37,425 nucleotides of DNA from Deltaproteobacteria bacterium. GTDB taxonomy: Bacteria; Desulfobacterota; Desulfuromonadia; Desulfuromonadales; BM103. Positions 1,096-28,574 of this stretch are shown one piece after another. Below the pieces are notes generated by a model. The model made no database searches, was not told the DNA's origin, and worked only from the letters and a program-made list of their open reading frames with translations. The translations under genes were made by a program, and so were the position numbers. Each line of letters begins with the position of its first letter. Position 1 is the stretch's first letter. The DNA lies in contig JAJRRB010000045.1 in assembly GCA_024279915.1 (NCBI GenBank), positions 1 to 37,425 of the forward strand, written 5' to 3'.

Positions 1096-2451
1096 ATGGA
1101 TCAGAAACAACAGCTATTACTTGACGCGACCAAGCGGCTGATCCGGCGTGGGGCCTTTCCCAATCTGGCAAAACTTCTTGCCAAATCTCACTCTGCTGAT
1201 ATCGCTCATCTCTTTCGCTATCTCGAACTGAAGGAACAGCGGATTCTCTTCAATTTGATTGAGGATGCGGAGAAGAGCGCCAATGTTCTGGCGGAACTCG
1301 ACCACGCTACAGGCGCCCAACTACTCGAGCAGCTCGATAAAGAGACGATTACCGAAGTCTTACAGGAAATGTCTTCGGATGATGCAGCCGATATAATCGG
1401 TAACATGCCAGAAGAATTGGCAGATGAAATCCTCAACATCATGCACGATGAGGATTCCGAGGAAATCGAGCACCTCCTGCAGTATGACGAAGATTCGGCT
1501 GGCGGTATCATGTCGACCGAGATTTTCGCCCTGGATGAAGACCTCACCGTTAAGGATGCTATCGAGGCGGTCCAGCAAGCCGGTGATGTGGAGATGGTCT
1601 TCTATCTCTACGTGGTGAATGAATCAAGGCAACTGGTTGGTGTCCTCTCTTTGCGCCAGTTGCTGACGGTCCAACCGTCGAAAAAACTTTCGGACATCAT
1701 GATCACCGATGTTTTCAGTGTGCGCACCGATATGGATCAGGAAGAGGTTGCGCGGGTTGTCGAGAAATACAACATCCTTGCTGTCCCGGTTGTCGATGAA
1801 ATGAACAGCCTGAAGGGGATCATTACGGTTGATGATATTATCGATGTTCTCCGCCAGGAGGCGACTGAGGATATCTACAAGATGGCGGGCGCCAGCGAGG
1901 AAGAACTCCTCTATGGCTATAAGGCGTTCAAAATCGCCAGCCTGCGTTTGCCATGGCTGTTGGTTAACCTGTTTGGCGGCGTGATTACCGGTTATCTGAT
2001 GTGGCGCTTCAAGATGACTCTTAAGGAAGTGATCGCCCTGATCTCATTTGTCCCCGTCATCACTGGTATGGGTGGTAACGTCGGTGGTCAGTCGGCGACG
2101 ATTATGGTGCGCGGTTTCGCCACCGGACGGATTGATTTCACCATGTTGCGCCAGGTTTTTTTGAAAGAGGTGCGGGTCGGTCTGATTATGGGTAGTGTCT
2201 GCGGAGTGACAGTTGGCCTGGTCGCTTGGGCTTGGCACGGTAATCCATATCTGGGTCTGGTTGTTGGCTTGGCGATGGTGGTGGCGATGGTGGTGGCCTC
2301 ATCAATGGGCGTGATTGCTCCGGCTGCTTTCAAAAGGCTTGGAATTGACCCGGCGATTGCCTCGATGCCTTTTGTGCAAACTGCTAACGATATTACCGGT
2401 ATCCTTATCTACTTCGCCACAGCGACGGCTTTCATTAGCTTTTTAAGGTAG
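1096..2451 (+). CDS. mgtE: magnesium transporter MgtE
   Basis: The product is 451 aa, the usual MgtE length. Residues about 20-130 form the MgtE N-terminal helical domain (SADIAHLFRYLELKEQR, then several 'D.aaDil..m' repeats). Residues about 135-260 hold two CBS domains ('GGIMSTEIFALDEDLTV' and 'DVFSVRTDMDQEEV...VDDIIDVL'). Residues about 283-451 are the five-helix pore domain with the family signature 'PVITGMGGNVGGQSATIMVRG'. In characterised homologues the protein is a homodimeric inner-membrane Mg2+ channel, gated by Mg2+ bound between the cytoplasmic domains. The start is the ATG at 1096, with AGAGG about 8 bases upstream. The next gene begins 11 bases downstream but looks functionally unrelated. 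Confidence 0.95.
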   Translation: MDQKQQLLLDATKRLIRRGAFPNLAKLLAKSHSADIAHLFRYLELKEQRILFNLIEDAEKSANVLAELDHATGAQLLEQLDKETITEVLQEMSSDDAADIIGNMPEELADEILNIMHDEDSEEIEHLLQYDEDSAGGIMSTEIFALDEDLTVKDAIEAVQQAGDVEMVFYLYVVNESRQLVGVLSLRQLLTVQPSKKLSDIMITDVFSVRTDMDQEEVARVVEKYNILAVPVVDEMNSLKGIITVDDIIDVLRQEATEDIYKMAGASEEELLYGYKAFKIASLRLPWLLVNLFGGVITGYLMWRFKMTLKEVIALISFVPVITGMGGNVGGQSATIMVRGFATGRIDFTMLRQVFLKEVRVGLIMGSVCGVTVGLVAWAWHGNPYLGLVVGLAMVVAMVVASSMGVIAPAAFKRLGIDPAIASMPFVQTANDITGILIYFATATAFISFLR

Positions 2452-2462
2452 TAGAACGTGGC

Positions 2463-4148
2463 GTGTCTATGAATAGGTGCTACGTCGAATTCTTTGCTTT
2501 TCTGTTACTCTGGAGCTGTCTGCTGCCGCAATTACACTACCCTGTTCAGGATGGTGACTACTATTGGCACATTAGGTCTGGAGATTACATCCTTGTAAAT
2601 CAAGAACTCCCCGAACAAGACCCTTTCTCGTTTACAACCCCTGACAAGCATGACTTGGATGAAAACGCAAACATGCGCACTGAGTTCATTCTTACACAAT
2701 ACTGGTTAGCGCAGATTGTTATGAGCAAACTACATTCCCTTTTTGGGGAATATGGTGTCATCGGTCTCAGGGTTTTTCTTTTTGGCTTGTTGTTACCGCT
2801 TTTGTACCTTTATGGTCGTCGTTCCGGCAAGGTTTTGTGCTTTGCATTTGTGTTTATTGCGGGTTCTCTACTTACAGAGTATCCTTCAGAACGACCGCAA
2901 CTTTTCTCTTTTGTGCTGATGCCGTTGGTCCTTTTTTTACTTGAAAAAGGTCGTCTTAGCCGACTCCGTGTCCCTAGAGAATTGTTAGTATTGCCACCTG
3001 TGATGCTTTTATGGGCTAACCTTCATGGCAGTTACCTGTTAGGTCTGGTGCTTTGCCTTGTCTACATTGTTGTGTCTGTTTTCAAACGGCTTTATGGTCA
3101 AACGGAAGTCAAACCGGCATATCTATCTTTGATTTTATTGGCAGCCCTGTCCTCAATTATGAACCCAAATGGATTGAATGCATTATGGGCTTGGTTTCAT
3201 GCAGACCCATACTATATAAAGTCTATTTATGAAAACCTGTCTCCATGGGAGGTTTTGAGTTACGGGCATTATTACCCAAGCTTTTGGATCTGTCTCTTAT
3301 CTTCACTTGCAGTTCTTATGCTGAATTGGCGAAGAATGACTCTCGAGCAGATAGTCGTTTTGGCCTGCCTGATGTTATTGGCCCTTTCCGGTTTGAGATA
3401 CATGGTTTTTCTGGCACTTGGATTGCTGTTGTTACTTCCTGCTAGAGCGTTCCCTAAAAAAATATCTGTGATGGTTGTCTTGTGTGCAATTGCCCTTGTC
3501 TTTTCTGGAGTGAAGACTTCTGTGATGGCGGGAGGTGTTGACCAGGAAAGGTTTCCTGTGCAGGCTGTTGGTTTTATGCGGTCAGCAGGCTTGTCTGGGC
3601 GGGTCTTTAGCTTCTATGATTGGGGTGGCTATGTTGGCTACTACCTACCCGGAGCTAAGGTGTTTATCGATGGTCGAGGGTTGTCTGCTGAAGTCAATGT
3701 CCTGTATGAAAAGGTTATGGCGGCTGACGGCTGGCAGCATACTTTAGATGAATATAAAGTCGACTTTATCGTCATACCAGGAGTTGGATGGTACAACGGC
3801 AAGATGTTTCCCATTATCAGGGCTCTGACTGTTAATTTGGGATGGGACTTGATTTATTGGGATGAGGTTGCAGTCATCTTTGCGCGAACGGATGAAATCT
3901 CAAGAATGGTTGTTCTAGAAAAGAAATATGTTCATCGACATGTTATAAGTCGTGTATCGTGGCTGGCGAAGAGGGGGATTGCGGAGAAAGAAGCCTTGCT
4001 AGAAACAAAAGTTCTTTCACAGATGGCACTGAATGATCTCAAAGGTGCTCTGGAAACTTATGGTGAGATAGTAAAGCTGAATGAAAATAGCCATTTTGCA
4101 CGAAAAATATCAACCTATCTAGAGAAAATAGAGGAGAGAGGTAAGTAG
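2463..4148 (+). CDS. polytopic GT-C-like membrane protein, paralogue A
   Basis: The product is 561 aa with about ten hydrophobic segments up to residue 345, then a soluble C-terminal part. D30-G31-D32 followed by YYWH sits just after the first membrane segment, where GT-C glycosyltransferases carry their catalytic acidic residues. Other landmarks shared with the genes at 7856 and 17139 are DPFSFT, ERPQLFSF, a 'LLWANLHGSYLLG' segment, NPNG, 'YDWGGYVGYY' and VFIDGRGL near residue 400. The last 60 residues look helical and TPR-like. I know this only as an unnamed family of large bacterial membrane proteins; transfer of a lipid-linked sugar is inferred from topology and neighbours. The GTG at 2463 or the ATG at 2469 could be the start; neither has a strong ribosome binding site. 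The gene is visibly more AT-rich than mgtE. Confidence 0.7.
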   Translation: MSMNRCYVEFFAFLLLWSCLLPQLHYPVQDGDYYWHIRSGDYILVNQELPEQDPFSFTTPDKHDLDENANMRTEFILTQYWLAQIVMSKLHSLFGEYGVIGLRVFLFGLLLPLLYLYGRRSGKVLCFAFVFIAGSLLTEYPSERPQLFSFVLMPLVLFLLEKGRLSRLRVPRELLVLPPVMLLWANLHGSYLLGLVLCLVYIVVSVFKRLYGQTEVKPAYLSLILLAALSSIMNPNGLNALWAWFHADPYYIKSIYENLSPWEVLSYGHYYPSFWICLLSSLAVLMLNWRRMTLEQIVVLACLMLLALSGLRYMVFLALGLLLLLPARAFPKKISVMVVLCAIALVFSGVKTSVMAGGVDQERFPVQAVGFMRSAGLSGRVFSFYDWGGYVGYYLPGAKVFIDGRGLSAEVNVLYEKVMAADGWQHTLDEYKVDFIVIPGVGWYNGKMFPIIRALTVNLGWDLIYWDEVAVIFARTDEISRMVVLEKKYVHRHVISRVSWLAKRGIAEKEALLETKVLSQMALNDLKGALETYGEIVKLNENSHFARKISTYLEKIEERGK

Positions 4149-4378
4149 AGCATTTTATGAAATAGGCCACTGGCTGCAGCTTTAGGCCGTGGTGATGACC
4201 ATACCAATGGGATAAACGGCCACTTTCAAAAAATACGATACCTTTCTGTCCAGCGTCTCTAGGGGTTTTTGCCGACAATTAATCACAAGGAGCACCTTAA
4301 CTCCATTGTTATGGAGATCCCTTTTGTTAGTATTTTGCGTATTTGAATACAAGATGTTTTAATTTGGAGGCCCTTGTT

Positions 4379-5302
4379 ATGGCTCATTTGTCTGTGGTGA
4401 TCCCTGTCTATAAAGCTGAGGAATGTCTTGAGGAATTGTATACTCGCCTGACAGTATCCTTGAGTAGTATAACTGAAGATTATGAAATCATCTTAGTTGA
4501 AGATTGCGGAGGGGACCGGTCATGGGAAATTATCTGTGAGCTGTCACAACGAGACTCAAGGTTGAAAGGACTTCAGTTTAGCCGCAACTTCGGCCAGCAC
4601 TATGGCATAACAGCTGGCCTGGATCAATGTGATGGCGACTGGGTTGTGGTCATGGACTGTGATCTTCAGGATCGACCTGAAGAAATTCCGCGGCTTTATG
4701 CCAAAGCTCAGGAGGGTCATGAAATTGTTTTGGCGCGAAGAGGTCGACGCCAGGATCCATTCTGGAAGCGTGTTAGCTCGAGAGCCTTCTATAAGCTATT
4801 TAACTATCTGTCGGGAATGCATTATGACGCTGAAGTTGGCAACTTTCGAATCTTCTCTCGTAAGGTTCTTGTACATTTTTTGCAAATCAGAGAGCAATTA
4901 CGTTTTTTTGGTGGTTTGATGGAGTGGATTGGGTTCCCCGTTGCTTCAATCGATGTGAAACATGCAGGAAGATATGAAGGAAAAAGTACTTATACGTTTA
5001 GAAAACTTATAAATCTTGCTGCGGAGACTATTATTGCATATTCGGACAAACCCTTGTGGTTTTCAATTAAAATTGGGTTTGTAATTGCTTCTTCTGCCTT
5101 TATTTATGGCCTTTACGTCGTTTATAATAACCTTTTCCATGGAGTTGAAGTATTAGGTTGGACGAGCGTGATTGTTTCCATATACCTTCTAAGTGGCGTG
5201 ATAATTGTTATTTTAGGCGTGCTCGGTATTTATATCGGCAAAGTTTTTGATGAAACGAAGGGTCGGCCTTTGTACGTTGTTTCGAAGAAGGTGGGGATAT
5301 GA
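4379..5302 (+). CDS. family 2 glycosyltransferase, ArnC/DPM1-like polyprenyl-phosphate glycosyltransferase
   Basis: The product is 307 aa. The catalytic GT-A domain (residues about 1-215) starts with SVVIPVYKAEECL and contains 'EIILVEDCGGDRSWE', a DXD motif in MDCDLQDRPEEI, and 'SRNFGQHYGITAGLD'. Two membrane helices follow (about 230-255 and 265-290), the arrangement of ArnC, GtrB and DPM1 enzymes. These move a sugar from a nucleotide to undecaprenyl or dolichyl phosphate on the cytoplasmic face. I chose the ATG at 4379 because GGAGG lies 8 bases upstream; the open frame extends to 4343 without support. Its stop overlaps the start of the formyltransferase gene (ATGA), so the two are coupled. 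The ArnC-like reading fits the neighbouring formyltransferase, flippase-like and aminotransferase genes. Confidence 0.88.
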   Translation: MAHLSVVIPVYKAEECLEELYTRLTVSLSSITEDYEIILVEDCGGDRSWEIICELSQRDSRLKGLQFSRNFGQHYGITAGLDQCDGDWVVVMDCDLQDRPEEIPRLYAKAQEGHEIVLARRGRRQDPFWKRVSSRAFYKLFNYLSGMHYDAEVGNFRIFSRKVLVHFLQIREQLRFFGGLMEWIGFPVASIDVKHAGRYEGKSTYTFRKLINLAAETIIAYSDKPLWFSIKIGFVIASSAFIYGLYVVYNNLFHGVEVLGWTSVIVSIYLLSGVIIVILGVLGIYIGKVFDETKGRPLYVVSKKVGI

Positions 5303-6182
5303 CCAAGGTTGGTTTTTTTGTTGCCGGGCTGAAGGGGTATGATTTTTTTCAGGCATTATGTGAAAAATGTAATCCAGCTTTTGTCGTCTCGTATGAAGTG
5401 AAAGGCACACTAGACGATAGTTTTTCTCTGATAAAAAAATCTGCGAAGATAAAGATTTGAAATTCTACGAGCGTAAAGATTTTACTGCTGAGGCTGGAGA
5501 AGTGAGCGAAGCTTGTTTAATCTTTGTTGTTGGATGGCAATATCTACTTAATACTGATGAGCGCTATGTCGTCTTTCACGATTCGTTATTGCCTAAGTAT
5601 AGGGGCTTTGCTCCCTTAGTGACAGCACTCTTGAAGGGAGATTCAACAATTGGAGTCTCGGCAATAAAACCTTCAAAAGAGGCTGACCGTGGTCCTGTCT
5701 ATTGTCAGGTTGCTGTTGAAATAAAGTATCCTATAAAAGTTCGAGAAGCACTTGAACACCTTTCGACGGTATATGAAAAGGCTGGGCGACAGGTTTTGGA
5801 GGCTTATTCTCAGCAAAGTTTACAAGCGTGGGAACAAGATGAGAAACTGGCAACTTATAGTCTCTGGCGTGATGAGATAGATTACCACATTGACTGGTCA
5901 TCAAGTGCCTCTTACATAAGACGTTTTGTTGATTCGTTAGGATGGCCTTACGGAGGAGCAAAAACTTATATGGCAAGGAATTGGTTGCGAGTAAACGATG
6001 TTACAGAAATCGTTGATTTAGAGTTTGAGGTTCGCCAGCCAGGGAAGGTCTGGGCTTTGGAGAAAGGCCGGCCTATAGTTGTTTGTGGCTCGGGTCTGTT
6101 GCGAATTGATTCCGCCTGTCATCTGGATGGGACACCGGTTGTTTTTAACAAGTTGAGATGCCGTCTGGGGTGTTATCCCTAG
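5299..6182 (+). pseudogene. sugar/Met-tRNA formyltransferase family protein, frameshifted (or read through by -1 slippage)
   Basis: The ATG at 5299 overlaps the stop of the glycosyltransferase gene. It opens an N-terminal piece (TKVGFFVAGLKGYDFFQAL) that reads 'VVSYEVKG' and then ends at TGA 5458-5460. The rest of the protein continues in the -1 frame from about 5439 to 6182. Together they would make about 294 aa, the size of a formyltransferase with its C-terminal domain. The motif HDSLLPKYRGFAP and the 'ADRGPVYCQ' segment are the Formyl_trans_N core; His and Asp are present, but the Asn of the usual N-x-H is Val here. Such enzymes N-formylate amino sugars with formyl-tetrahydrofolate, as the ArnA N-terminal domain does. 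The shift coincides with seven A at 5433-5439 in the phase of a -1 slippery heptamer. It may be mutation, sequencing error or recoding. Confidence 0.75.
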
Positions 6183-6199
6183 TCAGGCGGGAGGAAGCT

Positions 6200-6562
6200 T
6201 TGGGCTATTTATACATTTTGATGACAATTGTTCTGACCGTCTATGGGCAAGTTGTTATTAAATGGCAAATAAATCTTTCCGGCAGTATGCCTGCTGGCGC
6301 TGCTGCAATCACGATTTATTTGTCCAAGCTTTTTTTGAACGTTTGGATTTTAAGCGGACTTTTAGCTTATGGGCTAGCTGCGCTTGCGTGGATGGCCACT
6401 ATGTCAAAGTTTGAACTAAGTTATGCCTACCCCTTTATGAGCCTTGCCTTTGTGCTGGTAGTTTTCTTGAGTGTGTTTTTTTTCAATGAACCACTAACTC
6501 AACACAAGATTCTTGGAACGGCTTTGGTTGTCGCCGGTATTATTGTTATTAGCCAGGGGTAA
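6200..6562 (+). CDS. small EMR-fold membrane protein, ArnE/ArnF-like
   Basis: The product is about 120 aa with four membrane helices: residues about 3-20, 33-60, 63-85 and 90-118. It ends with 'SYAYPFMSLAFVLVV' and 'EPLTQHKILGTALVVAG', the pattern of EmrE-superfamily half-size transporters and of ArnE/ArnF. The latter are thought to flip undecaprenyl-phosphate aminoarabinose across the inner membrane. The open frame begins at an ATG at 6158 inside the formyltransferase gene. A TTG at 6200 has a good GGAGGA (6190-6195) just before it and avoids a long overlap, so I prefer it; the ATG at 6221 is a third option. Position between the formyltransferase and the aminotransferase supports a flippase role, which remains inference. 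Confidence 0.82.
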   Translation: MGYLYILMTIVLTVYGQVVIKWQINLSGSMPAGAAAITIYLSKLFLNVWILSGLLAYGLAALAWMATMSKFELSYAYPFMSLAFVLVVFLSVFFFNEPLTQHKILGTALVVAGIIVISQG

Positions 6563-6660
6563 AGCAGGACGCGTAGATGTCTGAGGACGCAAGGTGGACA
6601 GCAAAAAACGATGAATTGGTGTCATGCTATAAATGAATCAAACAATCCAGGTATAAGCCG

Positions 6661-7791
6661 TTGATCCCTTTTAACAAACCGTATATGACTGGTCAGGAGT
6701 TGGAATACATCCGGCAGGCGCATGAACGTGGAGCCTTGGCAGGCAGCGGCCATTTCACAAGGTTATGCGAGGCTTGGCTAGAGAAGAGAATCGGGTCATG
6801 TAAAGTGAACCTGACCCATTCCTGTACTGCGGCTCTGGAGATGGTAGCCATCTTGGCGGATATCCAGCCAGGTGACGAGGTGATCCTGCCGTCTTATACT
6901 TTTGTCTCAACGGCTAATGCCTTTGTCCTGCGAGGTGCAACTCCCGTTTTCGTTGATATCCGGCAGGACACCCTGAACATCGATGAACAATTAATTGAGG
7001 GGGCGATCACCGAAAAGACCAAGATCATTGTTCCTGTTCATTATGCAGGGGTTGGTTGTGAGATGGAGGTGATCAATCTTATCGCTCAACAGTACAATCT
7101 GCTTGTCGTTGAGGATGCAGCGCAGGGCCTTATGGCGGAATACAAGGGGCACCCCCTCGGTCCTTGGGGGGATTTCGGTACAGTGAGTTTTCACGAAACC
7201 AAGAACGTGATCTCCGGCGAGGGCGGAGCCCTGCTTGTGAATAACCCTGATTATGCCGCCCGCGCAGAAATTATTTGGGAAAAAGGAACCAATAGGAGCC
7301 AGTTTTTTCGTGGTCAGGTCGACAAATACAGTTGGGTGGATATCGGTTCCTCTTATCTTCCCGGTGAGATCATTGCGGCTTTTTTATTGGCACAGCTCGA
7401 GAGCGCTGATGAGATCACCAAGAAACGCTTAGCTATCTGGGACCAGTACCATGAGGGCTTCGCCGCCCTTGAAGCGCGTGGGCTTGTGCGCCGCCCGATA
7501 ATTCCTGAAGAATCCCAGCACAATGCGCATATGTACTATCTGCTGGTCGAGAATCTAGCGGTACGTACAGCCCTTATGCAATATCTGAAGGAGAATGAGG
7601 TGCACACTGTTTTTCATTATGTTCCGCTTCATTCCTCTCCTGCGGGTAGGCGTTATGGGCGCATTAGCAGAGAACTCCCAGTGACTGATTCCGTAAGCGA
7701 TTCACTGTTGCGCCTTCCTCTTTTTGTCGGCTTTGAGGATGCGCCTAAGGTAATCGATTTGGTTTATAAGTTCTTTGCTTTGAAAAGCTAG
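6661..7791 (+). CDS. DegT/DnrJ/EryC1 aminotransferase, WecE (dTDP-4-amino-4,6-dideoxygalactose transaminase)-like
   Basis: The product is 376 aa, the length of WecE/RffA. It begins IPFNKPYMTGQELEYI and contains NLTHSCTAALEMVAI, 'GDEVILPSYTFVSTANAF' and VEDAAQG. The PLP lysine lies in SFHETKNVISGEGGALL (near residue 181). WecE makes dTDP-4-amino-4,6-dideoxygalactose from the 4-keto sugar with glutamate. This suggests the cluster handles a dTDP-4-amino sugar rather than the UDP-pentose of the Arn pathway, although the exact substrate cannot be read from sequence. The first codon is TTG at 6661, with a weak CAGG about 10 bases upstream and no alternative ATG nearby. The 98-base gap before it shows no clear promoter, so it may be co-transcribed with the upstream genes. 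Confidence 0.9.
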   Translation: MIPFNKPYMTGQELEYIRQAHERGALAGSGHFTRLCEAWLEKRIGSCKVNLTHSCTAALEMVAILADIQPGDEVILPSYTFVSTANAFVLRGATPVFVDIRQDTLNIDEQLIEGAITEKTKIIVPVHYAGVGCEMEVINLIAQQYNLLVVEDAAQGLMAEYKGHPLGPWGDFGTVSFHETKNVISGEGGALLVNNPDYAARAEIIWEKGTNRSQFFRGQVDKYSWVDIGSSYLPGEIIAAFLLAQLESADEITKKRLAIWDQYHEGFAALEARGLVRRPIIPEESQHNAHMYYLLVENLAVRTALMQYLKENEVHTVFHYVPLHSSPAGRRYGRISRELPVTDSVSDSLLRLPLFVGFEDAPKVIDLVYKFFALKS

Positions 7792-7855
7792 AGGCGTGAG
7801 AAGAAGGTTGGAGTTGTGAATATCCATGAACTCGTCCGATGTGTAGAAACAAAAA

Positions 7856-9598
7856 ATGGCATGTAAGTCAATAGAAGTGATGATGTCAAGTCGAGGGGTT
7901 CGTCTCTTTGGCTTTTTGGGGCTGTTTGGCATTCTGTTTGTGTTGAACTCCTATGCTATTGCTGATGGTGACTATTTTTGGCATTTGAATACCGGTCAGT
8001 GGATTTGGGAACACTTTGCAATCCCCTCTTCTGACCCTTTCACATTTACGGTCGCAGACAGCAATCCCTTTCGCCCTGATTCAGGGCGTGTTCAGTTCAT
8101 CCTGAAACAATACTGGTTGAGCCAGCTGGTCTTTTACTCCTTTTGGAAATGGGGGGGGGAGGGTAGTGTCGTAGCTCTTAGAGCTGTGATTCATGCTTTT
8201 TTAATTTCTGCTGTGTTTGTCTCTGCTTGGCGCCGTGCTGATTTTTATCGCGCCTTGTTTTTTGCGTCATTGTTGTTCTTCTATTTTCAGACAGTTACCA
8301 ATGAGCGTCCCCAACTGTTTACCTGCCTCTTTGCCTTTTTACTTGTCGTTTTGCTGGAACGTATTACCTCCAATTCTACTCTTGAGATGAGTCGCCCCTA
8401 CTTTTTCGCTTTGCCCGCTTTGATGCTCATCTGGGCCAATATGCATGCTGGCTACGCTTTGGGGATTTGCATCATAATGGCTTATGCTGTGGTCCTTTTT
8501 CTGGAAAAGCGAGGTTCTTTTGATAAACCGGCCAAGCTAATGCTTATGTTGATGCTTGGCTCTGTTTTAATCCCTGTGTTTAATCCTGCGGGTTTGTTGT
8601 CTCTGTTGACAGAATTATTCTCTATGAAGGATAGTTACCAACTTCAGGTGAAGGATTCAATGTCAACCTTTGCATGGATACGCCATGACGGTATTATCAA
8701 TAACCTTCCTTACATCATAATGTCTTCACTTGCCGCCGTCAGCTTAGGGGTGTCCTTTAAGCAAATGCGCCTTGCCCATCTGTTTACTATCTCGGGCCTT
8801 TTACTGATTTCGCTGATGGCTGTTCGTCATCATGTCTTTCTGTTTTTGGTTGCACCGTTGGTGGCTGGTTATCTTCCACTTATCTCAAAATTGAAGCTGA
8901 CAGTCTTGATCTCGTCTTTTGCTTTTTTAGGCTTAATGCTGCTAAAAGTAGGTATTCAAAAACCATTGGTGTTTGCTGCCAACTCGAATCATCCTGATGG
9001 TGCAATAGAATTTATCCGTTCTACCAAACCTGCCCCTAATGTTTTTAACTATTATCCTTGGGGAGGCTATCTCGCCCATAAAATACCTGAGTATCAATTT
9101 TTTATTGATGGGCGGGGTTTAGTAGAAGAACATTTTGACAAGCATCAGGAACTTTTACAGACGGAAAATCTCTCTACTTTGGATGAGTACCAAATTAACA
9201 CTGCCATTTTCCCTGTATTCAGTTTTGTTGAAGGTAAGGTCTTCCCCTTGGCTGTGATGCTTACTTATGACCCGAATTGGGCTGCAGTGTTTGTTGGTCC
9301 CAATAGCTTGGTTTTTCTTCGCAGGACTTCTGGCAACATCAAGGTTATACAAAGACATGAGATTCCGCAAAAACTTATGTTCACAGTACTCATAACTGCT
9401 TATGACATGATGCTGGAACGGCACCCAAACCATTACCGTGCATTGGTGACCAAAGCACAAATCCAGAAACAGGTCGGTGACTATCCCGGAGCAAGAAAGG
9501 CACTCAAGAGGGCTCAAGTGGTCAGGCCGGAATCAAATTATCCTGTAGAGGCAATGAGGCGTCTTAACCAGAAAACCATCCGTTTGAATCCTAACTAG
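7856..9598 (+). CDS. polytopic GT-C-like membrane protein, paralogue B
   Basis: The product is 580 aa and clearly paralogous to the gene at 2463. D37-G38-D39 plus YFWH follows the first membrane helix, then DPFTFT, 'KQYWLSQLVFYSFW', ERPQLFTC, 'LIWANMHAGYALG', NPAG, 'YYPWGGYLAHK' and FFIDGRGL near residue 416. About nine or ten hydrophobic segments lie between residues 15 and 365. The C-terminus holds one TPR-like unit around 525-560 (ALVTKAQIQKQVGDYPGARK). An ATG at 7880 or 7883 could also be the start. Codons for W-G-G at about residues 98-101 form a run of nine G (8151-8159), which could slip. It closes the glycan island, so a role as the terminal transferase of the lipid-linked sugar, or as a partner of paralogue A, is inferred only from context. 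Confidence 0.7.
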   Translation: MACKSIEVMMSSRGVRLFGFLGLFGILFVLNSYAIADGDYFWHLNTGQWIWEHFAIPSSDPFTFTVADSNPFRPDSGRVQFILKQYWLSQLVFYSFWKWGGEGSVVALRAVIHAFLISAVFVSAWRRADFYRALFFASLLFFYFQTVTNERPQLFTCLFAFLLVVLLERITSNSTLEMSRPYFFALPALMLIWANMHAGYALGICIIMAYAVVLFLEKRGSFDKPAKLMLMLMLGSVLIPVFNPAGLLSLLTELFSMKDSYQLQVKDSMSTFAWIRHDGIINNLPYIIMSSLAAVSLGVSFKQMRLAHLFTISGLLLISLMAVRHHVFLFLVAPLVAGYLPLISKLKLTVLISSFAFLGLMLLKVGIQKPLVFAANSNHPDGAIEFIRSTKPAPNVFNYYPWGGYLAHKIPEYQFFIDGRGLVEEHFDKHQELLQTENLSTLDEYQINTAIFPVFSFVEGKVFPLAVMLTYDPNWAAVFVGPNSLVFLRRTSGNIKVIQRHEIPQKLMFTVLITAYDMMLERHPNHYRALVTKAQIQKQVGDYPGARKALKRAQVVRPESNYPVEAMRRLNQKTIRLNPN

Positions 9599-9688
9599 TC
9601 ACTGACTTTGGCTGATTTGCGAATCTGGGTCAGATTGAGATTTCATAAGCTACATTTTTTGTCGCATCGATTGTTTGATCCTCCATTT

Positions 9689-10450
9689 ATGAAAACTTCC
9701 ATTTCCCAAGCCATCATCCTCCATCACACCAACTACGGCGAAGCCGACCGCATCGTAACCTTCCTGACTCCAGACCATGGTCGCCTCAAGGGCTTTGCCC
9801 GTGCAGCGCGCAAAAGCCGTAAACGTTTTGGAGCGGCTCTTGAGCCGTTTGCCGAGGTGCAATTACATTGGAGTGCGCGTAGTTCCGGAGATCTGATCAG
9901 TTTACGTGATGCCGAACTTGTCAATTTGCGCTCCGGTCTGCGCCGTGATCTGGAGACCCTGACACTGGCAAGTTACGGCTGTGAACTGACCGAAGTTCTC
10001 TTTGATGAGTCAGGAGTAGGTGTTGAGGTCTTTCAGCTGTTGCGGGCTTTTCTCGACCACCTCGACAATGAGGGCTATTCTGTCGAAGCTCGTCTTCTGC
10101 TGGAAATACGCATGCTGTCTCTCTCTGGCTATCTTCCTCATCTGCAACATTGTGCTGATTGTTTCGGCCCTTTGCCGAGTGGCCCTGTCGGTTTCTCGGC
10201 GGCAGCGGACGGCAGCCTCTGCCCTGCCTGTGATGGTGGGCGGTCAGTCCTCAAAGTCGATCGCATGACGCTCGGTACCTTTGGCCGGATCATGCAGACA
10301 CCCCTGACCAGCTTTGCTGATTTCAAGCTCAGTCTACGTTCTCGTCAGGAGGGGCAGACGCTACTGAACGACGCTTTGCAATGTCATCTACACAGACCTT
10401 TGAAGAGTCTTGAATTTCTCAATCGATTCAGTCCGGAAGAGACGTCTTAG
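9689..10450 (+). CDS. recO: DNA repair protein RecO
   Basis: The product is 253 aa. The N-terminal OB-fold region reads SQAIILHHTNYGEADRIV, then 'LTPDHGRLKGFARAARKSRKRFG' and 'LEPFAEVQLHW', as in RecO. The zinc-binding pairs CADC and CPAC, separated by about 22 residues, follow near residues 150-180. RecO works with RecF/RecR to load RecA on gapped DNA coated with single-strand binding protein. An upstream in-frame TTG at 9608 would add 27 residues before the conserved start, so I chose the ATG at 9689, although no strong ribosome binding site precedes it. The gene heads the recO-glyQ-glyS-ppdK block. Confidence 0.93.
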   Translation: MKTSISQAIILHHTNYGEADRIVTFLTPDHGRLKGFARAARKSRKRFGAALEPFAEVQLHWSARSSGDLISLRDAELVNLRSGLRRDLETLTLASYGCELTEVLFDESGVGVEVFQLLRAFLDHLDNEGYSVEARLLLEIRMLSLSGYLPHLQHCADCFGPLPSGPVGFSAAADGSLCPACDGGRSVLKVDRMTLGTFGRIMQTPLTSFADFKLSLRSRQEGQTLLNDALQCHLHRPLKSLEFLNRFSPEETS

Positions 10451-17138: not shown

Positions 17139-18905
17139 ATGGATGGCAATTCTTTGCAACATGAACCGACAATGTTGATCCGACCCAATAGGTTTGAGAA
17201 AACAACTTTATTGTTGTTTTGGGGGTTATTTTCCCTTTTCATCTTCTCTTTCGCGGTTCGTCCTATTATGGACCCGGATTTTTGGTGGCACCTAAAGACC
17301 GGAGAGGAAATGGTGAAAAACTGGGGATTGCTGCAGGCTGACCCATTTACCTTTACTGGTGACGCAGTCGTATCGAATCGTGAATTGATGATCCTGAAGG
17401 GATATTGGCTTTGGGAAATCATTGCCTATGGCATGTATTCCTTACTCAAGTTTAACGGGATACTGCTGCTCAATATAATCACGCTCGGTGCGACGGCCGG
17501 GGTGGTTGTCCATCAAATACACCGGGAACGAGTGCCTTATGGCATTGCTCTTCCACTGTTGACCTTCAGCTTTTTTTTAGTATGTAGCTCCTATGTTTGG
17601 GAACGGCCCCAGATGGTCTCCTTCCTATTCGCAGCGATCCTGTTAGGCCAGATTGCTCGAGTGCGTGACGGCGGACAGCTGGGGTGGTCTTTACCACTGG
17701 TAATGGTGATATGGGCGAACATGCACGGCGGTTTCGTTGTTGGAGATATAATTATTCTCTGCTTTGCTGTAGGGGTTGTTATTGAATATCGTCATGACCT
17801 CTCCAGAATGAAGCACCTACTGCTCTGGAGTATAATTGCCATCGGTTCCTCTCTGATCAACCCAAATGGTGGATTGGTCCTAGTAGAAATTTTTACCTTT
17901 CATGACAGTACATTGATGGGTGCTGTTGCTGAGTACCAAAGTACTTTGAGCCGCTTCCAAAACGGGCATGGTATCGTTGCAATATTATGGTTTTTGATCG
18001 TTCTCTATTTTGTTGGTGTATGGGGTAATCGTCGTCTCTTTTGGCCGGAGTTGATCGTTGCCCTCTTCCTGGCATATTTTTCTGTCAAGTACGCACGGAA
18101 TGTTGGATTCTTCTCTTTAGCGCTTCTTCCAACAATCTGCAAGTCTCTTCACGCTGGAGCAGTCCGTCTGCGCTGGAGGTTCTCACCGCTAATTTCACAA
18201 ATAATATTGGTTCTTTGTGCCGCCTTTCTCCTCTGGCCTTCTTATGGCTTATTGCAGGGCCGTTCGGGAAAGGGGCCTATTGTGAATTTCTATCCAGAGA
18301 AAGCCATCTCCTTTATTCGTGAGAGCGGACTGCAAGGAAGGCTGTATAATAGCTATGAAAACGGTGGGTACCTTCTGTGGCGCCTTGCCCCAGAGATTAA
18401 AGTTTTTATCGATGGTCGAGGGTTGGAATCAAGAGTATTTGAAGATTGGGAGGTAATAAAAAGAGGTAGCAGAAAAAGCGAGATACTTCTCGATTCATAT
18501 AAAATTGATTATATTATACAGCCAATCTACCAAGGCGATGGAAGTATTCAGCCCTTAATGAAGAGACTCCTTGATAGACACGGTTGGATGCCAATCTACC
18601 TTGATTTGCAGGTCTATATGTTCGCACATATCACACCCCAAAATGCCAAAATTATCGATAAATACTACATTGACAAGAATGATTTTAGTGCACGCCTTCT
18701 TCTTATGTATAATTACCTTTGCCGGTCTTTTCCAAAAGAGATTGGTTTCCAGGTGGCGCGTGCAGGGATGATGTTACACTTATCCAGATATGATGAAGCC
18801 AAGGCTCAGATAGAGGCAATTATGTCCATCGCGCCGCATGATCAATCTATACCCCGCTTACGCCTTGATCTAGAAATTTTGCGTTTAAAGGGTTTGCGTC
18901 AATGA
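17139..18905 (+). CDS. polytopic GT-C-like membrane protein, paralogue C
   Basis: The product is 588 aa and related to the genes at 2463 and 7856. After a first membrane helix, D45-P46-D47 is followed by FWWHLKTG, then DPFTFTGD, 'LKGYWLWEIIAYGMYSL', ERPQMVSF, 'VIWANMHGGFVVG', NPNG, 'SYENGGYLLWRLAP' and VFIDGRGLE near residue 421. The C-terminus (about 500-588) is helical and TPR-like. 'YWLWEI' replaces the QYWL-S/A-Q of the other two, so C is the more divergent copy. A 21-base stretch coding for the FIDGRGL region is identical in A (from about 3661) and C (from about 18404). The ATG at 17139 follows AGGA at a spacing of 9; the ATG at 17172 is an alternative. Function is unknown; membrane glycan transfer is inferred. 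Confidence 0.7.
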   Translation: MDGNSLQHEPTMLIRPNRFEKTTLLLFWGLFSLFIFSFAVRPIMDPDFWWHLKTGEEMVKNWGLLQADPFTFTGDAVVSNRELMILKGYWLWEIIAYGMYSLLKFNGILLLNIITLGATAGVVVHQIHRERVPYGIALPLLTFSFFLVCSSYVWERPQMVSFLFAAILLGQIARVRDGGQLGWSLPLVMVIWANMHGGFVVGDIIILCFAVGVVIEYRHDLSRMKHLLLWSIIAIGSSLINPNGGLVLVEIFTFHDSTLMGAVAEYQSTLSRFQNGHGIVAILWFLIVLYFVGVWGNRRLFWPELIVALFLAYFSVKYARNVGFFSLALLPTICKSLHAGAVRLRWRFSPLISQIILVLCAAFLLWPSYGLLQGRSGKGPIVNFYPEKAISFIRESGLQGRLYNSYENGGYLLWRLAPEIKVFIDGRGLESRVFEDWEVIKRGSRKSEILLDSYKIDYIIQPIYQGDGSIQPLMKRLLDRHGWMPIYLDLQVYMFAHITPQNAKIIDKYYIDKNDFSARLLLMYNYLCRSFPKEIGFQVARAGMMLHLSRYDEAKAQIEAIMSIAPHDQSIPRLRLDLEILRLKGLRQ

Positions 18906-20470: not shown

Positions 20471-20601
20471 AATCCGTTACGCTTAATGCAAAACAAGTCG
20501 TAAGCCAAAGATGACTCCCTCCCTCCGTTTTGCCGGGAGGATTTACTCTCCCGTCAGGAAGACGGCTGTAACGCGTCCTTTTCCAGTCTTTGTGCATTTT
20601 G

Positions 20602-22059
20602 ATGATTTATAGTAATAGGACGTTCTTGGTGACAGATAAAACTGGTAAATTGTATATTTTTCTAAAGTATGGGGCTTCGGCGCTTCTTTTTATTATGGTT
20701 GCGTTTGCTTTGTATCTGCCCTCTTTCGATTATCAATGGACATATGATGATGCCACAGTGTTGGTCCTCAACCCCGACATCCGTTCTTGGCAGGGGTTTT
20801 GGATGGATTCTCGTCCTGGGCGACCGTTACGTGAGCTTACGTATTTGCTTGATCATGCGCTGTTCGGTCTTAATTCCGCAGGTTACCACTTTCAAAACAT
20901 CTTCTGGCATGGACTGAATGCTTTTTTTGTATTTCTTACGACTTTACGATTGGGGGGCCGGAAGTTTGTTGCCTGGGGGGGGGCACTCATTTTTCTGACT
21001 CATCCCATTCAAGTAGAAGTAGTTGCTAATATATCTCACCGTAAAGACAGTCTAGTGTTAGTTTTTGCTTTGATTTCTTTTCTTTGTTACCAAAACATGT
21101 TTGAGAGTGCGAAAAGACAGCGCTGGGGTTGGTTTCTGGTATCAGTTATAACGGCATGGATTGCTTTTCAGGGAAAACAAACGGCCGTTGCTCTTTTACC
21201 AATGTTTCTGGCTTACGAGATAGCTTTTGTGCCAACCGAAAATCGCCTTTTATTGCGACATCCAAAGTGGTTTTGTGGAGCAATGTTCATTGGTCTTGTC
21301 AGTGTGTTCTGGTGGTTATTTCGCTTTGGTGCCATGGAAAAGCGCCCTTGGGAGATCCAGGGGCTTATGACAAAGCTAAACCATTTTTCGACCGTAACGG
21401 ATGAAGTATATTTTGCGACTGTGCTCAAATCATGGGCGTTTTCGTTTAGTAAACTTCTTTATCCCATCGACTTATCTGTGGAATATGTCTTCAGTGTTCC
21501 AGTATCATGGTTTGATCCATGGGTCTTGTCATCATTGATTGTATTGTTCCTTTATGTTGTCGCTCTTTGTTTTTTGAGACGTAGGTCTCCACTGTTGTTT
21601 GTGGCCGTTGTATTAATCGGAGCTTTTTGGCTACCCGTTTCGAACCTTTAGCCTCAGACTTATTTTTCTGCAGATCGTTATTTATATGCTCCTATGGCTG
21701 GAATTAGTATCGTCTTAGCAGAGTTTTTGGCTTGTATTCTTAATCAGCGGTTAAATTTCGTTAAAATGTCATTAGTGCTGATGGTTTTGGTTCTTTCTGT
21801 TTTATCTTGGCTGCAGAGCATAGTGTGGCGCACCAATATGACTCTCTGGAGTCACGCGGTCAAGGTTAGTCCAGAATCTTCTTATGCGCTCGGGTTTCTT
21901 GGGATGACCTATCTGAAACAAGGGGATTCAATGCAGGCTCTGCCGCTTTTGGAGCGGGCGGCTAAAAACCCATTCAATTCACAGGCTCAGCTAGCACTGA
22001 AGTATGCCAAAGTTAAGGTTCGATCCCAACTACATAAAAAGACCAAAGAAACCCGTTGA
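20602..22059 (+). pseudogene. TMTC-like membrane protein with TPR tail, interrupted by an in-frame TAG
   Basis: A single reading frame runs to 22059 but is cut by TAG at 21649-21651. The first part (about 350 aa) has the TMTC/GT-C landmarks: 'YDDATVLVLNPDIR', 'RPGRPLRELTYLLDHALFGLNSAGYH', 'HPIQVEVVANISHRKDSL' and, just before the stop, LPVSNL. The second part resumes as PQTYFSADRYLYAPMAG, the conserved 'NliP...aDRYLYlP' segment, then 'WRTNMTLWSHAVKVSP' and a TPR-like end. The break therefore falls inside a conserved loop and replaces one residue. TMTC proteins in eukaryotes are dolichyl-P-mannose protein O-mannosyltransferases; bacterial members are little studied. The start is uncertain (ATG 20602 or GTG 20629). 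A run of nine G sits at 20975-20983. Confidence 0.78.
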
Positions 22060-25103: not shown

Positions 25104-26042
25104 ATGAGTAATCAAATCTGGACAGAATTAGAAAAAGGCACCGCACCCAAAGGACTCCTCTGGCTCAACACCCATCGTGTTGTCATCAATCCTGACTATC
25201 GGAAACTGCTTAAGACCGTGGATCTTGACACGATTCAAGGAGTGTTACGTAGCAAGTTGGGTGAGGTTATCAGCACAGATAGAAAACAAGAGAAGAACAG
25301 TGTCAAACGTGTTGAGATTACTTATGAAGGCAAGCAGCGGGTTTTTTACCTCAAACTATACTGGAACTATCTCTTTGAAAAGATCCGGGCTCGTGCCTTT
25401 CGTGGGTCTCTCGTTGGTCGATCCATGGTTCGAGCTGAATACGAGAATCTGGAAAAGCTCGCCGAGTGTGGCTTGCGCGTTCCCCGGCTGGTTGCTTATG
25501 GAGACCACCGTTTCGCTGGAGGTGTCATCCACGCCTTTATTATTACGGAGGAAATTCCCCAAGCAATGGGAGTGGACTATCTCGCTCACGATTGGTTCAA
25601 CCAGCAGACAAAAGCAGTTCGCAGGCAGAAGCAGACAGAGTTAATTGATGAAGTCGCCAGAGCGGTCAGGCAGATGCACGAGCATGGTTTCGAGCACCAC
25701 GATCTTTTCCTGCGTAACATGATGGTCTCGGGGCAGGATATGTCACAACTCTACATGATGGATGCCCCTCGCGGTTATTTCTGGCCGCAGTTTGTTATGC
25801 GCAAACGCCGGACGTTTGACTTGGCTACACTGGATGCCGCCGCAACAGAGGGCTTTACCCGTAGCCAACGCATGCGCTTTATGCACCTCTATCTGGGGTG
25901 TGACCGGTTAACCGAACAGGATAAAAAACTTGTTCTACAGGTTCTGGAACGGACAAAACCGATGCGAGAGCGTCAGATCAAACGCCTGGAACGCAGTATC
26001 GCTGTCGACGAGAATGGTAGACCGCAGATCCTCCAAGATTAG
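25104..26042 (+). CDS. lipopolysaccharide kinase (WaaP/InaA/Kdo kinase) family protein
   Basis: The product is 312 aa. It shows the kinase-fold features of this family: a lysine strand in 'RVFYLKLYWNYLFEKIRARAF', a glycine-poor N-lobe, then 'MHEHGFEHHDLFLRNMMV' (the HxDlxxxN catalytic loop near residue 195) and MMDAPRGYFW as the metal-binding segment. Characterised members phosphorylate heptose or Kdo in the inner core of LPS on the cytoplasmic side. The start ATG at 25104 has a weak GAG-rich ribosome binding site. It ends 4 bases before the convergent trmO stop with no terminator between them. A link with the glycan genes elsewhere in the window is possible but not shown. Confidence 0.87.
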   Translation: MSNQIWTELEKGTAPKGLLWLNTHRVVINPDYRKLLKTVDLDTIQGVLRSKLGEVISTDRKQEKNSVKRVEITYEGKQRVFYLKLYWNYLFEKIRARAFRGSLVGRSMVRAEYENLEKLAECGLRVPRLVAYGDHRFAGGVIHAFIITEEIPQAMGVDYLAHDWFNQQTKAVRRQKQTELIDEVARAVRQMHEHGFEHHDLFLRNMMVSGQDMSQLYMMDAPRGYFWPQFVMRKRRTFDLATLDAAATEGFTRSQRMRFMHLYLGCDRLTEQDKKLVLQVLERTKPMRERQIKRLERSIAVDENGRPQILQD

Positions 26043-26804: not shown

Positions 26805-28574
26805 TTAAAAAGGAAACAATAAAGGAATCACCAGGGTCGCAATAATCCAGACCATGATGTTTAAGGGAGTGCCAACCTTGGTGTAGTCTAAAAACTTGTA
26901 GCCACCAGGTCCCATAACCAGAGCATTTGACTGGTGGCTGATCGGAGTCATAAAACACATTGAGGCAGCAACAGCGACCGCCATGAAGAAGGGTCGTGGT
27001 GAAACGGCCATGGCGATGGCGGCATTATACGCGATTGGTGCTACCAGCACGGCAGCGGCAGCGTGACTCATTACTTCGGTCAGGCAGAAGGTAATCAGAA
27101 AGACCGCACAGAGTACCGCCCATGGACCGAATGAGCCGACCCCGCCGATGATCATATTCGAAAGTAACTCGGCGGCGCCGCTGTTTTGCATGGCATGACC
27201 AAGTGGCAGGGTCCCGGCAATCATCATAATGATTGGCCAGTCGATGCTGTCGTAGGCCTCTTTAATGGTCAGGCATCTGGATAAGACCATGATCAGGGCT
27301 CCGAGGGTGGCGGCAATGACAATTGGCGTCGCTCCGGAAACACTCAACAGGATGACACCAATAATTGTTGCCACGGCAATCGGTGCCCGTCGAGGTCTGT
27401 ATGAGACCGGATCAACTCCACCCAGGACCAAAAAGCCATGTCCCTGGCCGAGATGTCGTACTTTCTCTTCCGGACCCTGTAGCAACAATACGTCGCCAAA
27501 ACGTAGAATAACGTGATCAACTTTGCGAACCACTGAGGCACCACTGCGCCAGATGGCCAGCACTCTCAGGCCATGGGTGTCGGCAAAGCGCTCCTGACGC
27601 AAGGTCTTGCCGACCATGTCGCTGGTCGTGGTCAGAGAGGCTTCGACAACGACGATCTTCTCTTCAGACGTATCGGGGAGCGGGTTGTCTCGCTCGGGAA
27701 CAACTGCTATCCCCTTTTCTTTACTGACTTTAAGGATTCCTTCCGGATCTCCTTACAGAAAGAGGGTGTCGCCAACGTACAATTTGCGGTTGCGTTTCGG
27801 TTGCGGGAATTTTTGCCGATCACGCAACAAGGCGCGGACTTTCATGTTGAGTTCGCGTTCCAACATGCTCTGGCCGATGGTCTTGCCATGGAGCGGCGAG
27901 CCTTCCAGAATCTCGATTTCGGTGATGTATTCTTTGACCTGGTAAGCCTCTGTCAAAGTTCCGGATTTGCGGTTTGGCAGCAGCTTATGGCCGAAGAAAG
28001 CCATGTAGCAGATACCGCAAGCGAGCAGAATAACGCCGAGTGGGGTGAAGTCGAACATCCTGAAACCTGTTCCGGTGTACTGCTGGAGCAGGGAGTTAAT
28101 CAAAATGTTGGGCGGGGTGCCGATCAGGGTGCAGACACCGCCAAGGAGTGAGCCAAAAGCGAGGGGGATGAGGAGCTTACTCGCTGGAAGATTGGTTTTG
28201 CGGGCCATTGTGATGACGACTGGCATCAGAACCGCAGTGGCACCGATATTATTAATGAAAGCCGAAAAGAAAGCCACGAGCCCCATGATCGAGGCGATCA
28301 TCAACGTCTGGTTATGACCAGTCATACGGATCAGATGTTCACCCAGGGTAGAGATTGATCCCGTGTAGGAAATTCCTGCTCCCAGGACGAACATGGCGGC
28401 AACGGTGATGACGGCGGGGTTGCTGAACCCGGCAAAAGCCTCGGCAGGGGTGACCAGACCAGTCAGGGCCACGGCCAGTAAGACCATGAGGCTGACCAAA
28501 TCCATACGAACCCACTCCGTGGCGAAGAGAATGATGGCAATCAGCAGGATCAGAAGCGTGAGGGTGATTTCCAT
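26805..28574 (-). pseudogene. SLC13/DASS-family transporter with two RCK_C (TrkA-C) domains, interrupted by an in-frame TAA
   Basis: One frame of 589 codons spans the region but is cut by TAA at 27753-27755. Before it come the first membrane half ('FSNPAVITVAAMFVLGAG', 'INNIGATAVLMPVVITMARK', 'GTPPNILINSLLQQY') and most of the first RCK_C domain, ending GDTLFL. After it come the rest of that domain, a second RCK_C domain and the second membrane half ('MMIAGTLPLGHAMQNSGAAELL', 'TEVMSHAAAAVLVAPIAY'). In the second RCK_C domain the matching site reads GDVLLLQGPEEK, so the stop replaces an expected Gln (CAA to TAA, one transition). Everything else looks intact, which suggests a recent nonsense mutation or a read error. 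Substrates of this family are anions such as dicarboxylates or sulfate; which one is unknown. Confidence 0.85.

Follow-up and report, generated by a model that had tools for sequence, protein, structure and literature searches.

The window analyzed here, a stretch of 37,425 nucleotides, comprises positions 1-37,425 of contig JAJRRB010000045.1 from Deltaproteobacteria bacterium (GCA_024279915.1). Between mgtE and recO lies a cassette of putative sugar-transfer genes, with the following features:

1096-2451: mgtE, the flanking gene before MP561
2463-4148, + strand: MP561, an STT3/DPY19-like GT-C candidate and MP580 paralogue (by homology to MP580)
4343-5302, + strand: GT2, a GtrB/PgfS/ArnC-type polyprenyl-phosphate glycosyltransferase with C-terminal membrane helices (PF00535)
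5299-6182, + strand: FT, a formyltransferase-family gene split over two frames (PF00551/PF02911)
5433-5439, + strand: a run of seven A, the place of the FT frame change
6158-6562, + strand: an EamA/ArnE-F-like small membrane protein, the presumed flippase (PF00892)
6661-7791, + strand: WecE, a dTDP-4-amino-4,6-dideoxygalactose transaminase (NF008687, TIGR02379)
7856-9598, + strand: MP580, a GT-C candidate resembling STT3/DPY19, its C-terminal end bearing TPR-like repeats (by profile comparison)
9608-10450: recO, the flanking gene after MP580
17139-18905, + strand: MP588, a third MP paralogue outside the cassette (by homology to MP580)

The genes named in the initial annotation are all present in the order proposed there (MP561, GT2, FT, EamA/ArnF-like, WecE, MP580), all on the + strand and flanked by mgtE and recO, and their domain matches lie far above chance. 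The cassette forms an island at the mgtE-recO junction; of 40 genomes compared, 31 have a junction shorter than 1 kb. The GC content of the island is 0.42-0.44 (0.50 for WecE), compared with 0.51-0.52 for mgtE and recO. The notion that this junction is a hot spot for sugar genes only was rejected, as the insert in one relative (G003) holds a secretin and a T2SS/T4P-type ATPase. Searches of viral contigs for WecE and MP proteins returned no match. Elsewhere in the window, a CitMHS transporter gene is also split, in this case by an in-frame TAA.

The aminotransferase belongs to the WecE family, scoring 595.8 bits against NF008687 (cut-off 375) and 586.5 against TIGR02379 (cut-off 434.85), with a DegT domain in Pfam (4.3e-84) and 4piw as its best PDB match (3.9e-138). 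It failed the corresponding test for ArnB (NF008658, 201.8 bits; cut-off 631). RmlA (TIGR01207, 443.4; cut-off 360.65) and RmlB (TIGR01181, 509.3; cut-off 365.1) are encoded elsewhere in the genome, on contig C86, and at E<=1e-8 no protein of the genome matches the ArnT-type family PF02366. These results support the earlier proposal that the pathway runs parallel to Arn with another sugar. Judging from its family, WecE would produce dTDP-Fuc4N rather than the C4 epimer.

The Arn pathway leads to UndP-Ara4N through ArnA, ArnB, ArnC, ArnD, ArnE/F, and ArnT. The cassette shares its logic, wherein a nucleotide sugar is aminated, the amine is capped, and the sugar is loaded on polyprenyl phosphate, flipped, and transferred by a GT-C enzyme; GT2, FT, and the flippase are also weakly homologous to their Arn counterparts. 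GT2 carries a Glycos_transf_2 domain (PF00535, 2.8e-27) and falls below the cut-offs for both PgfS (241.9 bits; cut-off 500) and ArnC (192.5; cut-off 529), its best PDB match being sll0501 (1.7e-59; ArnC, 1.9e-48). The small membrane protein, the one ArnE/F-like protein in the island, matches EamA (PF00892, 1.4e-07, 32.3 bits; gathering score 28.2) and similarly scores below the cut-offs for ArnF (56.4 bits; 99) and ArnE (40.3 bits; 92). The cassette departs from Arn in using WecE for ArnB, in its large proteins, which are STT3-like by profile in a genome without a PF02366 match at E<=1e-8, and in lacking, among the window proteins scanned, any ArnA dehydrogenase domain or ArnD-type deformylase, as had been noted from the outset. 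A true Arn logic, in which the formyl group is transient and a deformylase strips it before transfer, would explain the weak Arn-family matches of GT2, FT, and the flippase; nevertheless, this is highly improbable, since PF01522 is absent from the window proteins scanned, the single PF01522 match in the genome lies on a different contig (C33), and acetyltransferase families are found among the enzymes near WecE in relatives. Acetyl caps are kept as a rule.

The formyltransferase recognized in the initial annotation does carry the domains of its family, namely Formyl_trans_N (PF00551, 5.7e-11, 42.9 bits; gathering score 26.1) and Formyl_trans_C (PF02911, 6.3e-10, 39.6 bits; gathering score 21.1), but its frame is not intact. 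Its best PDB match is the ArnA formyl domain (2.9e-13), and its ArnA score of 73.1 bits (cut-off 777) reflects the formyl part alone. The main ORF (5457-6182, 726 bases) is open and lacks the N-terminal part. In a different frame, an ATG at 5299 starts a 47-residue piece (5299-5439), the first 20 residues of which resemble the N-terminus of an intact relative (local score 38, reached by none of 1000 shuffles), although this piece was absent from the tblastn hits at E<=100. The frame shift sits at the seven-A run, where an assembly error would also fit. The cassette may be functional with an FT that is dead or off-phase in this strain, the exported sugar being a free 4-amino sugar or one bearing an N-cap made elsewhere. 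This reading, which we consider doubtful though still worth weighing, accords with the frame change at the A7 run and with the split CitMHS gene in the same window; however, assembly error or A7 slippage would give an identical pattern, and the main ORF is still open and 44% identical to the intact FT of L078, so that loss, if real, was probably recent.

A second peculiarity concerns the catalytic Asn, located two residues before the motif His. This position is occupied by Val in both the window FT and the L078 FT, and by Asn in ArnA and in the Fmt of the same genome (VVFHDSLLP in FT versus INVHASLLP in Fmt). FDH has Ile104 at this site, whereas FMT, ArnA, and GART have Asn, and replacement of FDH Ile104 by Asn cut hydrolase activity to less than 10% (PMC4388273). 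By analogy with the FDH hydrolase domain, FT might not be a sugar N-formyltransferase at all, acting instead as a hydrolase or passing formyl to another acceptor. Such a function seems rather improbable in view of the location of FT near WecE in two phyla and of the other sugar-modifying families that relatives carry in the same region. Because of the Val substitution and the frame break, formylation by FT is unproven; with the enzyme exchanged in related cassettes as well, the formyl group may or may not stay on the product.

Searches for FT in 58 relatives (E<=1e-20) and in 395 genomes drawn from the phylum (E<=1e-25), each set including the genome under study, matched only that genome; none was detected on plasmids at 1e-15 or, with the L078 protein as query, on viral contigs. 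GTDB contigs yielded one relative in a search with six peptide patterns, which would have missed distant ones.

In a survey of 136 genomes of the order, WecE was found in 11, including this one, with neighborhoods judged on the stretches fetched (for two genomes, the WecE stretch only). A GT2-like gene lies within 12 kb of WecE in nine of the 11 and an EamA-like gene near it in six, with GtrA in one further genome; GT2-like and small-flippase-like partners recur in most, not all, WecE relatives. MP-family proteins likewise occur near WecE in 9/11; those of G002, G451, and G453 were assigned from an early, mixed profile together with blastp matches of 22-24%. Only three of the 11 show GT2, enzyme, EamA, and WecE in that strict order: the cassette genes of G006 are scattered across approximately 11 kb, G016 has no GT2 on the stretch fetched, and G051 has none closer than approximately 14 kb. 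FT adjoins WecE in a single WecE genome of the order, the present one, and also in a Cyclobacteriaceae MAG (Bacteroidota). Conservation of the gene set among relatives thus holds for the scaffold and does not extend to FT.

Other enzymes are found near WecE in these relatives: a GNAT enzyme in G002, a hexapeptide enzyme in G021, PglD-like and WbqC enzymes in G006, hexapeptide, MaoC, and HpcH enzymes in G031, a sulfotransferase in G025, ATP-grasp and epimerase enzymes in G451, an epimerase and a 403-aa protein in G453, WbqC in G051, and an AMP-ligase and a methyltransferase in G001. The enzyme family near GT2, flippase, and WecE is exchanged among relatives, and these other families may cap the same nitrogen. 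Since further sugar-modifying enzymes occupy the exchangeable position, located between GT2 and either the flippase or WecE, related strains would be expected to show differently capped versions of one sugar.

MP561 and MP588 are each 29% identical to MP580 (E 8.8e-61 and 3.3e-38, respectively), and a 28-member MP alignment that includes both has 15 invariant columns. Neither MP561 nor MP580 matches any Pfam or NCBIfam family, except for a weak sub-cut-off TPR at the C-terminal end of MP580; at E<=0.1, known GT-C families of Pfam are matched by 0 of the 28 members, whose Pfam matches comprise one weak DUF6057 and otherwise mostly TPR. In profile comparisons, the 28-member MP profile matched STT3 (six sequences) at 94.4% (E 8.7e-8; reversed controls, 0.3% and 0.3%), with the match spanning the last membrane helices and the soluble part; the soluble part by itself gave 1.5%, less than its 8.6% against an MgtE control. 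Among the matches of the MP profile to the PDB, the 60 listed of 187 all fall within the TPR region. The comparison with PMT gave 5.2% (reversed controls, 6.6% and 10.7%), on which basis an ArnT-like nature of the large proteins was rejected. A first set of 53 sequences had given 88% against PMT, a value discounted because this set was seeded with the PMT-like orf353 group (97.3% against PMT); at E<=1, the clean profile of 28 members fails to match the orf353 proteins sought with it. The MP family accordingly resembles STT3/DPY19 more than ArnT at the profile level, and its placement in the stead of ArnT, as originally envisaged, agrees with position and presumed function, but not with the profile, in which PMT/ArnT likeness is undetectable.

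With the oligosaccharyltransferases STT3, AglB, and PglB and the C-mannosyltransferases of the DPY19 type (PMC10154233), the MP family also shares an acidic motif after the first helix, and its WGGY segment aligns with WDYGGW. Unlike STT3, MP proteins lack a Pfam STT3 match and bear a TPR-like tail, and their donor, as for DPY19, is presumably a monosaccharide phosphate. AlphaFold2 models built from the three window sequences were poor (pLDDT 55 for MP580 and 46, unusable, for MP561); in MP580, confidence was fair only for the TPR tail and the soluble part. Foldseek with this low-confidence MP580 model ranked DPY19 first (E 0.02) and found the C-terminal domain AglB-like, with no hit at E<=0.001; a fold clearly unlike GT-C, which would have spoken against the initial annotation, did not emerge from these models.

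The closest MP580 homologues, in G006 (55%) and G001 (51%), are both encoded near WecE, with one MP gene intervening in G001, such that MP580-type proteins more than 50% identical lie close to WecE in three of three genomes, the window counted. MP proteins occur in 23 of 58 genomes, often without WecE, and the WecE-associated ones are spread over more than a single clade (eight label changes in the tree; 59 of 500 shuffles as low); the match of donor and transferase is consequently unproven. MP561 and MP580 might instead serve a neighboring exopolysaccharide, the WecE product passing through cytoplasmic glycosyltransferases into a Wzx/Wzy or ECA-like polymer. The greater frequency of MP than of WecE (11/136) is in keeping with this, as is the classic use of WecE, in which WecF adds dTDP-Fuc4NAc (PMC7439462). 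Yet WecE has as neighbors a GT2 of polyprenyl-phosphate type and a small ArnF-like protein, and together with the three-of-three association of MP580-type proteins they make this explanation unlikely.

On balance, we judge it somewhat more probable than not that the locus encodes a three-component system that decorates glycans with a WecE-derived sugar and whose N-capping gene can be exchanged. The gene set, the WecE membership, the presence of the precursor enzymes, the recurrence of most of the scaffold, the exchange of enzyme families, and the STT3 likeness of the large proteins are established computationally; each reaction, the reaction order, the acceptor, the capping of this nitrogen by the other families, and the working of FT at all are proposed. 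RmlA and RmlB would supply dTDP-4-keto-6-deoxyglucose, which WecE would aminate to dTDP-Fuc4N; the N-capping enzyme (here FT, with formyl) would cap the 4-amino group; GT2 would load the capped product onto polyprenyl phosphate; flipping would fall to the EamA-like protein; and MP580 and/or MP561 would move the sugar to an acceptor outside the membrane, either a polysaccharide or a protein.

By homology, the cassette combines the components of the Gtr and GT136 systems, i.e., a lipid-phosphate sugar synthase (here a polyprenyl-phosphate GT2), a small flippase, and a GT-C transferase; the GT136 pentofuranose system is one of the three-component periplasmic glycosylation systems (PMC11127046). 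In comparison, the cassette also includes genes for making the sugar and, presumably, for N-capping it, and its GT-C candidate comes from an unnamed family. The Fuc4NAc branch of ECA, comprising RmlA, RmlB, WecE, WecD, and WecF (PMC7439462), shares the RmlA/RmlB/WecE route to dTDP-Fuc4N and, in G002, a GNAT-family enzyme (WecD fold) by WecE. ECA differs in using WecF and a pyrophosphate-linked repeat, whereas here the sugar apparently passes by way of polyprenyl phosphate to a GT-C transferase.

More tentatively, MP proteins could constitute an undescribed STT3/DPY19-like GT-C family with a TPR tail that adds WecE-made 4-amino-4,6-dideoxyhexoses to surface glycans or proteins, the cap gene (formyl-, acetyl-, WbqC-, sulfate-, or ATP-grasp-type) being swapped among strains for rapid change of one surface sugar, and the Asn-less FT possibly being switched by A7 slippage. 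Searches of open-licence PMC papers listed none whose title or opening abstract lines describe this cassette, a weak sign that it has not been published. If our reading is right, the RmlA/RmlB/WecE route of the enterobacterial common antigen would be coupled to export on polyprenyl phosphate and to a GT-C family as yet unnamed, and relatives would provide a natural series of one surface sugar with varying caps. Such a series would open the cap tolerance of GT2, flippase, and GT-C to direct test, and the Asn-less FT would probe the need for that Asn in sugar formylation.

The six genes that the initial annotation had listed were all found between mgtE and recO, on the forward strand, in a genome of 3.83 Mb (99 contigs):

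2463-4148, +, MP561, large membrane protein
4343-5302, +, GT2, polyprenyl-phosphate glycosyltransferase
5299-6182, +, FT, formyltransferase-family gene in two frames
6158-6562, +, EamA-like, small presumed flippase
6661-7791, +, WecE, aminotransferase
7856-9598, +, MP580, large membrane protein

The GC content of this island is 0.42-0.44, WecE excepted (0.50), and that of mgtE and recO is 0.51-0.52. Among 58 related genomes, in which mgtE was matched in 49 (low-identity second copies left out) and recO in 51, the two share one contig in 40; the gap between them is below 1 kb in 31 of these and 5.1-16.5 kb in nine, our own included. WecE lies inside the wide gap only here and in G006, while the gap of G014 carries a different sugar set (PMT_2, GT2, STELLO, carbamoyltransferase) and that of G003 a secretion set. 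Because the wide gaps hold such differing cargo, the mgtE-recO junction (2451-9608 in the window) is a general insertion site. At the G006 island end, a partial second recO match (71 residues, 79% identical; contig C69, 29093-29305) directly precedes the full recO and is perhaps an insertion trace.

At 595.8 bits, WecE exceeds its cut-off of 375; among solved structures it is far nearer to WecE-type enzymes (3.9e-138) than to ArnB (5.3e-48). An excerpt of PMC7439462 describes WecE as converting dTDP-4-keto-6-deoxyglucose to dTDP-Fuc4N. Since RmlA, RmlB, RmlC and RmlD, each above a curated cut-off, are encoded on contig C86 of the same genome, the precursor should be available; judging from its family, we infer that the product would be Fuc4N rather than its C4 epimer. 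GT2 and the small membrane protein had been termed ArnC-like and ArnE/F-like, which stands as resemblance and fails as family membership, since their Arn scores lie below cut-off: the nearest solved structures to GT2 are sll0501 (1.7e-59) and next ArnC (1.9e-48), with PgfS outscoring ArnC among profiles and neither reaching cut-off, and the small protein resembles ArnF/ArnE, likewise below cut-off.

The nearest solved relative of FT is the ArnA formyl domain. A single close relative was found, an intact 297-aa protein that shares 44% identity and comes from a Cyclobacteriaceae MAG, in which its gene directly neighbours WecE. Both carry V-F-H at the position of N-L-H in ArnA and of N-V-H in the Fmt encoded by this genome. 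According to part of PMC4388273, FDH has Ile104 at the corresponding position, and the Asn of FMT, ArnA and GART is crucial for catalysis. With Val in place of that Asn, FT is a candidate sugar formylase whose activity is unproven. Its frame shifts at an A7 run (5433-5439), the N-terminal piece (from 5299) and the main ORF (from 5457) being in different frames; this may reflect error, pseudogene formation, slippage or phase variation, and because the downstream part is still open, error, slippage or a recent event is favoured. No other copy was found among the 58 relatives and 395 phylum genomes searched, which take in eight of the ten other WecE genomes; G451 and G453, compared over the WecE stretch only, gave no match.

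Searching 136 genomes of the order at E<=1e-120 recovered WecE from 11, our own counted. On the fetched stretches, a GT2-like gene lies within 12 kb of it in nine (none on the 14-kb stretch of G016, and none closer than ~14 kb in G051), and an EamA-like gene is nearby in six (the window, G002, G006, G021, G025 and G031), with GtrA in G001. The MP family is nearby in nine and is absent from the stretches of G025 and G031; for G002, G451 and G453 its presence rests on an initial profile of mixed composition plus weak blastp hits. The order GT2, enzyme, EamA, WecE is strictly kept in three (the window, G002 and G021); G025 conforms only if a 188-aa opposite-strand ORF is discounted, additional genes interrupt the order in G031, and the set is dispersed in G006.

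Genes near WecE in each genome
Window: FT
G002: GNAT
G021: hexapeptide
G006: PglD-like and WbqC
G031: hexapeptide, MaoC and HpcH
G025: sulfotransferase
G451: ATP-grasp and epimerase
G453: epimerase and a 403-aa protein (domains unscanned)
G001: AMP-ligase and methyltransferase
G051: WbqC
G016: MP proteins (adjoining)

The reading we prefer, with modest confidence, is a WecE-based three-component decoration cassette whose capping gene is exchangeable, similar in working to the Arn pathway yet distinct from it. Additional sets of GT2 and large membrane proteins on the same stretches in G002 (L090) and G006 (L073/L044) suggest stacked decoration cassettes. The points of interest are the exchangeable enzymes and the unnamed GT-C-like family.

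MP561, MP580 and MP588 (17139-18905, +, outside the cassette) are paralogues, and MP580 was matched in 23 of the 58 genomes, including its own. An alignment of 28 members holds 15 invariant columns (M1, D39, W42, G47, D60, W87, R151, P152, H197, P244, R324, G403, G404, D418 and R420). None of the 28 matched a known GT-C Pfam family at E<=0.1, and one weakly matched DUF6057. In a one-to-one comparison, the MP profile matched six STT3 proteins (PF02516) of the same class at 94.4% (E 8.7e-8) over MP580 ~258-455, a WGGY segment aligning to WDYGGW. Unrelated membrane families gave 0.1-1.7%; as these sets held only two to four sequences each, reversed profiles (0.3% and 0.3%) are the fairer control. 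The signal requires membrane and soluble parts together: the membrane part alone reached 43%, and the soluble part a non-significant 1.5%, below its 8.6% against MgtE. Past the first helix, FDPDCY or YDPDCY occurs in three of the six STT3 proteins, which also contain WDYG; MP588 has a similar D-P-D-F-W motif. Global alignment did not superpose the first-helix motifs. Foldseek with a weak MP580 model returned no match at 0.001; DPY19 ranked first (E 0.02), the AglB C-terminal domain 17th and 26th (probability 0.99 and 1.00), and other matches were mostly TPR. As the variable modules of DPY19 and STT3 are alike, according to a portion of PMC10154233, the two hints agree.

Elsewhere in the window, orf353 (20590-21651) falls in a distinct PMT-like group, whose match to PMT is 97.3%. 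A small TPR protein (21694-22059) comes next, and the two are possibly one split TMTC-like gene. A Kdo/WaaP-type lipopolysaccharide kinase family protein (25104-26042) is preceded by a radical SAM protein and a rhomboid, and a CitMHS transporter (26805-28574, reverse strand) is interrupted in-frame by a single TAA.
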